A stretch of 64,000 bases of DNA from Paenibacillus ihbetae (lineage in GTDB: Bacteria; Bacillota; Bacilli; Paenibacillales; Paenibacillaceae): contig NZ_CP016809.1 of the NCBI RefSeq assembly GCF_002741055.1, positions 4,256,501 to 4,320,500 on the forward strand, given 5' to 3'. The notes beneath the pieces were generated by a model. That model did no database searches, had not been told where the DNA came from, and was given only the letters and a program-made list of their open reading frames with translations. The position numbers and the translations under genes were made by a program. Each line of letters begins with the position of its first letter. Within the stretch, counting starts at the first letter, position 1. Shown one piece after another: positions 15,953 through 16,271 of this stretch.

Positions 15953-16056
15953 ATCCTGTGTATAACATTTATCCCCATAATCCACTTTGATATGACCTTG
16001 TTTTTACCACTTACCAACAAATTATACACAGGATTTCCACAGTAGGTTGTGGATAA
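15953..16056. promoter_or_regulatory. DnaA-box cluster upstream of sda
   Basis: Four DnaA-box matches in about 100 A+T-rich bases: TTATACACA on the minus strand at 15957-15965, TTATCCCCA (one mismatch) at 15969-15977, TTATACACA on the plus strand at 16022-16030, and a perfect TTATCCACA on the minus strand at 16048-16056. The first and third belong to a perfect 13-base inverted repeat (15953-15965 and 16022-16034). The last box ends eight bases before the sda -35 element. In Bacillus subtilis sda is directly controlled by DnaA, so this is the expected regulatory site. Confidence 0.85.
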
Positions 16057-16064
16057 GCGAACAG

Positions 16065-16093
16065 TTGTTCCGCTTTTCTATGTCTGATATGAT
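16065..16093 (+). promoter_or_regulatory. Sigma-A promoter of sda
   Basis: TTGTTC at 16065-16070 and TATGAT at 16088-16093 with a 17-base spacer. Transcription would begin near 16100, about 28 bases before the start codon. Confidence 0.8.
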
Positions 16094-16127
16094 AGATTCA
16101 GGAAATTTGAGGAAGGGTGTGAGAGGG

Positions 16128-16271
16128 ATGGCTATGTTGACGGATGAGATGCTGCTCGATTCCTATCATATGGCTGTTGAATTGAAGTTAGAGCGTGAGT
16201 TCATTACTCTACTGCTGGCCGAAATTCATAAACGGAACTTGGACACCAATTCCGGCAGCATCCTGCATTAA
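16128..16271 (+). CDS. sda: Sporulation checkpoint inhibitor Sda
   Basis: A 47-residue helical hairpin protein. It follows the Bacillus subtilis Sda pattern (M-x-x-L-S/T-DE-LL-SY, then a second helix FI-L---EI-(K)RR/KRNL), here LTDEMLLDSY and REFITLLLAEIHKRNL. Sda blocks autophosphorylation of sporulation histidine kinases such as KinA when replication initiation is disturbed or newly under way. ATG at 16128 gives the same N-terminal length as the Bacillus protein; ATG at 16134 is an alternative with GAGAGGG at better spacing. It is monocistronic, with a promoter, DnaA boxes upstream and a terminator about 100 bases downstream. Confidence 0.9.
   Translation: MAMLTDEMLLDSYHMAVELKLEREFITLLLAEIHKRNLDTNSGSILH

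Follow-up and report, generated by a model that had tools for sequence, protein, structure and literature searches.

The closest described counterpart of the locus analyzed here is the sda promoter of Bacillus subtilis, where DnaA binds to and activates sda (Smith and Grossman, 2015; PMC4447404). In that report, eight high-affinity DnaA regions are distinguished, among them the sda region, which is also one of the two with the most dramatic difference between the ATP and the ADP form of DnaA (PMC4447404). The dissociation constants given for DnaA at the sda region are 0.15 μM (ATP) and 0.51 μM (ADP), and at 55 nM DnaA about 50-fold more sda DNA was recovered with the ATP form (PMC4447404). Boxes 4–7 are reported to be needed at low DnaA, and boxes 1–2 or 6–7 to suffice at high DnaA; the boxes are numbered to 7 in the text of the report, and 8 sites are counted in 300 bp (PMC4447404). 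B. subtilis sda is also described as repressed by LexA (PMC11925247). The oriC of Escherichia coli is reported to contain arrayed low-affinity DnaA sites that point in the same direction, lie exactly 2 bp apart and are flanked by strong boxes, the 2-bp linkers aligning the bound DnaA along a single helix face (PMC4451416), and the E. coli uvrB promoter is reported to have DnaA and LexA sites together (PMC6015884).

In the stretch of 64,000 nucleotides of Paenibacillus ihbetae DNA that was analyzed (the window), sda (16128..16271, plus strand) encodes 47 amino acyl residues, as the original prediction had stated, and is a sporulation kinase inhibitor gene by homology. The protein scores 54 bits against Pfam family PF08970 (curated cut-off 22.6, E 1.4e-14) and 28.9 bits against the Sda structure 1pv0 of the PDB; an NCBIfam search with it assigned no family. 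Based on its homology to 1pv0 and 3d36, the window Sda is predicted to inhibit sporulation histidine kinases. Upstream of sda, a pattern search recovers the three exact DnaA boxes and the one near-box of the original prediction. The exact matches to the consensus TTATNCACA are box A (15957..15965, minus strand, TTATACACA), box E (16022..16030, plus strand, TTATACACA) and box G (16048..16056, minus strand, TTATCCACA), and the near-match is the weak box B (15969..15977, plus strand, TTATCCCCA), which has one mismatch and starts at A+12. The promoter proposed earlier is present as well, consisting of a −35 element TTGTTC (16065..16070, plus strand), which begins 8 bases after G, and a −10 element TATGAT (16088..16093, plus strand) at a distance of 17 bases, and is followed by a candidate ribosome-binding site AGGAAGGG (16110..16117, plus strand).

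The original prediction had missed three weak plus-strand sites in fixed register, each with two mismatches, and a palindrome. Site C (15978..15986, TAATCCACT, A+21) is the weakest and least conserved of the sites. Unit D (16011..16019, TTACCAACA, G-37), which is conserved in position, and unit F (16033..16041, ATTTCCACA, G-15) flank box E (G-26), such that D, E, and F form a row of plus-strand 9-mers with 2-bp linkers, the last of which stops 6 bp short of G. The layout of the window comprises four weak sites (B, C, D, and F) besides box E and the anchors A and G, which are both strong, both on the minus strand and 91 bp apart. The palindrome is an SOS (LexA)-type box, GAACAGTTGTTC (16059..16070), recognized by an own-genome match (CGAACAGTTGTTC), and it overlaps the −35 element. 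Taken as a whole, these sequence features are very probably best explained by a compact platform for DnaA assembly that forms the sda promoter.

For comparison, 197 sda upstream regions from 58 genera and 27 families were collected from genus, family and class samples. Sda is encoded in all 61 genomes of the genus sample, from which 59 main copies plus the window were used, and the copy of genome G022 was left out of the genus set since its contig ends inside the copy; three additional loci of the genus were taken from the family list. The family sample (Sda in 72 of 78 genomes) contributed 67 newly used loci, a weak match in G366 being left out, and the class sample (Sda in 129 of 299 genomes) contributed 70 of the 104 outside the family of the window. 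Unit positions were scored with ±1 register freedom. The choice of box A is doubtful at six loci (L026, L033, L060, L201, L212, and L232), three of which (L026, L033, and L060) are compatible with an A-G distance of 91 as well; all six were left out of the length-class statistics and kept in the pair counts and in the unit-position scoring.

Conservation of the boxes in relatives, which the original prediction had proposed as a check, is extensive. An A/G-type pair of minus-strand boxes exists in 195 of the 197 regions and in 25 of the 27 families, versus one of 197 in the reversed-sequence control (all spacings of 40–140 bp allowed). In 190 regions (55/58 genera, 25/27 families), a pair 79–115 bp apart is accompanied by at least two of D, E, and F. 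A pair is missing from L218 and L244 only, each of which is the sole locus sampled from its family (f2 and f37, respectively); the f37 genome has another Sda copy (L412) with exact boxes 90 bp apart. L218 is the sole Sda match of its genome (G061), and upstream of it no DnaA-box pair or array was found. Box-to-box distances over the 197 regions peak at 90 and 91 (minus-minus), at 11 and 22 (plus-plus), at 11, 53/54, 64/65, and 75/76 (minus-plus), and at 15, 26, and 37 (plus-minus), and the reversed-sequence control has no minus-minus peak. The general layout consists of A and G on the minus strand and, on the plus strand, B at A+11 or A+12, sometimes C, and D, E, and F at G-37, G-26, and G-15.

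The spacing of the boxes named in the original prediction is nearly constant in almost every main copy of the genus, L060 and L067 deviating most. Within the class of 89–92 bp, box A is exact in 158 and box G in 114 of 160 loci, and site C has at most two mismatches in 64 of 160 (best of ±1 register). The inner sites are mostly one or two mismatches off the consensus and steady in their letters, with the exception of E in the genus. B is letter-identical (TTATCCCCA) in 59 of 60 genus loci (1.99 bits), unit F reads ATTTCCACA in 48 of these 60, and unit D reads TTATAAACA in 19 of 37 loci of other families. In the genus, the mean information amounts to 1.9 (A), 2.0 (B), 1.4 (C), 1.6 (D), 1.8 (E), 1.9 (F), and 1.8 bits (G), compared with 0.47 bits upstream of the sites and about 0.6 bits in the C-D and F-G gaps, and array sites have on average 1.2–1.8 mismatches versus a random-site level of 4.6–4.9. 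That weak sites keep their particular weak letters favors function over decay.

The lengths between A and G differ mostly by whole helical turns. Among the 195 pairs (including the six doubtful choices), 160 measure 89–92 bp, 22 measure 99–102 bp, four 80–81 bp and five 111–114 bp, with four elsewhere. The number of 11-bp units mostly follows this distance, with two units at 80–81 bp, three at 89–92 bp, four at 99–102 bp and five in the 111-bp locus L242. A unit is found at G-15 in 99–100% of the loci in every length class, and, with ±1 register freedom, a site at G-48 in 86% of the 99–102 class (n = 22) but in 8% of the 89–92 class (n = 160). At the genus level (39 vs. 11 genera), none of 100,000 label permutations was as extreme as this contrast, and, as the sampled loci are related, such p values do not represent independent tests. 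When only sites with at most two mismatches are counted (±1 freedom), A and the first unit are 53–54 bp apart in 159 of 170 loci of three pooled classes. A-G lengths differ within the single families f10, f18, and f21, which implies, if these families are monophyletic, that the length changed by about one helical turn on three or more separate occasions.

There are exceptions to this rule. In f23 and f34, a distance of 111–114 bp is reached by a C-D gap that is longer by about two turns, with no added units, and two f10 loci of 90–91 bp have only two clear units and a degraded third. The fourth unit of L232 (f18) is weak (three mismatches), and the 80-bp locus L220 has three mismatches at G-26 and two at G-37. 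Without the 89–92 class, a Rayleigh test at 10.5 bp gives p = 1.9e-5 (n = 27 genus-distance values), but this is no more than loose support for steps of roughly one turn, as some doubtful loci are included and the best period is 11.5.

The promoter keeps a nearly fixed distance from this array. Among 192 loci, the −35 element mostly starts 8 or 9 bases past G (27 and 25 genera, respectively; shuffled maximum 7), and GAAC-N4-GTTC lies 2–3 bases past G, overlapping the −35 element, in 164 of 195 loci, compared with 0.008 occurrences per kb elsewhere in the same loci. In the 31 loci in which this SOS-type box is not intact, 12 keep TTGTTC, 10 have TTGTCC (one with GAAC) and nine have no such hexamer there; the persistence of TTGTTC in loci without GAAC is consistent with the right half also serving as −35 element. 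A GAAC-N4-GTTC operator of LexA type, a putative LexA site, is also present at the window sda promoter, and two boxes of the same type are located upstream of lexA (TIGR00498) in the same genome. The longer SOS consensus is CGAACRNRYGTTYC, from which the window box departs at one base.

Clusters of DnaA boxes can also serve to titrate or recycle DnaA, as the DnaA-box clusters of B. subtilis and the datA and DARS sites of E. coli do, and the array might be such a site, its position before sda being secondary. In favor of titration, the B. subtilis counterpart belongs to the eight high-affinity regions mentioned above (PMC4447404), and one site may both titrate and activate. However, the −35 element remains steadily 8–9 bp from G, and the array accompanies sda through different neighborhoods. 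In a scan of named genomes for G, SOS-type box and −35 element, 117 of 119 among the matches listed precede an Sda ORF, a count that is to be read with the reservation that the pattern contains the −35 element and therefore selects promoters. The two listed matches without an Sda ORF are L361, which ends just past the match and has the array, and L298 from a spirochaete, which has no array. A titration or recycling site is therefore an unlikely explanation, if one that deserves to be kept in mind, and an activating promoter array is preferred.

The original prediction had pointed to a mirror-image geometry of A and E, perhaps lineage-specific, which could loop or bend the promoter. The 13-bp inverted repeat, formed by both boxes with their flanks (arms 15953–15965 and 16022–16034, 56 bases between them), is indeed perfect, and A and E have matching central bases in 42 of 60 genus loci. 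Yet E has the full consensus in 56 of the 60 genus loci, in 10 of 63 loci from other genera of the family and in only one of 37 loci from other families (89–92 bp class), and in these 37 loci A is exact in all and G in 33. A and E are therefore rejected as the conserved pair, and the layout conserved in 25 of 27 families is instead that of A and G on the same strand with D, E, and F between them. A perfect A/E repeat requires E to be the full consensus. To judge from the sequences compared, it is a by-product at the genus level and the conserved layout is old, and looping or bending by paired A and E seems very unlikely.

Another possibility is that the array serves a neighboring gene, such as the divergent yqeG in Bacillus, and is found at sda by proximity only. 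In two named Bacillaceae genomes (L331 and L351), a divergent YqeG gene lies next to the array, and yqeG-M is listed in a review as directly regulated by DnaA (PMC8203912). In the family of the window, the neighbors are a co-directional ATP-grasp gene upstream, with a homolog near 124 of 126 loci, and a ferredoxin-reductase-like gene on the other side, with a homolog near 123 of 126. Neither homolog is found near any of the 70 loci of other families, where the array still precedes sda. As the array stays before sda where the neighbors differ, it is ruled out as a property of the chromosomal neighborhood, and service to a neighboring gene is extremely improbable compared with service to sda itself.

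Exact DnaA boxes number 154 in the 6.59 Mb of the own genome (a single contig), versus 99 matches for the reversed pattern, and at this density about 0.0004 triplets within 100 bp would be expected by chance per genome. A chance cluster without function, for which nothing speaks beyond the AT-rich sequence, can practically be dismissed against this expectation, the conservation over 25 families and the 2.25 exact boxes per sda upstream region compared with 0.015 in the reversed-sequence control (197 regions). Nor is the A-G bracket a common genomic pattern, as the own genome has only two pairs of minus-strand boxes 89–92 bp apart, one at sda and one at 4390477, the latter with neither an array nor an SOS-type box. 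Two other box clusters were noted in this genome. A stretch of 170 bp at the tadA start (L407, 3118000–3121200) holds four exact boxes, which are some 96 kb away from those at dnaA/dnaN and could form an origin-proximal DnaA-box cluster; three lie within 80 bp downstream of a gene for a Cof-type HAD hydrolase (L408, 4060800–4064000).

The array is not a feature of every Sda copy and is missing from nearly all extra copies examined. The window genome encodes a single Sda, two or more Sda matches occur in 43 of the 61 genomes of the genus, and none of the 46 paralogous Sda genes of the genus (one truncated locus, L076, omitted) is preceded by an exact DnaA box. These extra copies (L068–L114) are diverged, many of them carrying MDYYFHPSPRPSSLE... 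close to the start. At 20 further places in nine other genomes, the array was found at two (L412 and L413), and of the remaining 18 places 17 lack an exact box and one (L417) has a single one. Genome G399 of the family of the window contains six Sda matches, of which three are near-identical, and its five extra copies are without an exact DnaA box. In genus g3 of this family, all six sampled genomes (G104, G321, G389, G398, G406, and G414) lack a detectable Sda and possess Spo0A, so that this lineage may sporulate without the Sda checkpoint. A remnant array is not apparent in them, as the six genomes contain three brackets, spread over three of the genomes and none with an array, versus two for the reversed pattern.

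In the mechanism that we propose, ATP-DnaA would nucleate at the strong boxes and then cooperatively occupy the weak sites of the array along a single helix face, and DnaA at G would contact RNA polymerase and thereby activate sda. LexA would cover the −35 element until DNA damage removes it. By blocking the kinases that feed Spo0A, Sda would delay sporulation in cells that are initiating replication or carry damaged DNA. That cooperative assembly of ATP-DnaA with oriC-like spacing activates sda, with LexA as a brake, is the reading that we consider highly probable as a whole. The replication-to-sporulation checkpoint of the original prediction finds support in homology, in the conserved array and in the reports on B. 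subtilis and probably holds; the mirror-image pairing of A and E is not supported. A more far-reaching view, for and against which the chances seem about even, is that the sda promoter carries an orisome-like ATP-DnaA oligomer of two to five units, placed at whole helical turns between fixed anchors, and is old in sporulating Bacilli. The sporulation brake would then sense the very kind of cooperative DnaA assembly by which oriC is fired, LexA acting at the −35 element as an AND-NOT input, and the promoter would have evolved mainly by gain or loss of one DnaA protomer. Such a modular ruler seems to be new, in that it was not found in the open-licence literature searched; control of sda by DnaA and LexA was already known. 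What was a loose cluster of DnaA boxes is hereby given a rule that is testable at single-base level, comprising end anchors, 11-bp units, whole-turn spacing and a nearly fixed distance to the −35 element. Natural promoters with two, three, four or five units offer ready tests of how oligomer length and ATP state of DnaA affect transcription, a question that is hard to ask at oriC. The data suggest that a single promoter integrates the signals from replication and from DNA damage to sporulation not just in B. subtilis and its surroundings but in many lineages across the class.

Among the known systems, the B. subtilis sda promoter shares with the window the Sda gene and the cluster of DnaA boxes. 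The Sda of L127 aligns with B. subtilis Sda 1pv0 (residues 1–44, 83.9 bits) and the A-G distance at this locus is 91 bp, and in a B. tequilensis record (L331) box G, the SOS-type box and TTGTTC follow in a row. If the published numbering runs from A to G in the order of transcription, boxes 4–7 would correspond to D-E-F-G and the sufficient pairs to A-B and F-G. In contrast to B. subtilis, B of the window is TTATCCCCA at +12 instead of +11, E has the full consensus, and the upstream neighbor is a co-directional ATP-grasp gene instead of a divergent yqeG. With the E. coli oriC array, the window shares same-direction 9-mers 2 bp apart between strong boxes, but here there are three sites, E is strong, and the array is situated beside a promoter of sigma-A type. 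The uvrB promoter of E. coli resembles that of the window in the co-occurrence of DnaA and LexA sites, and the gene that they precede in the window is a different one.
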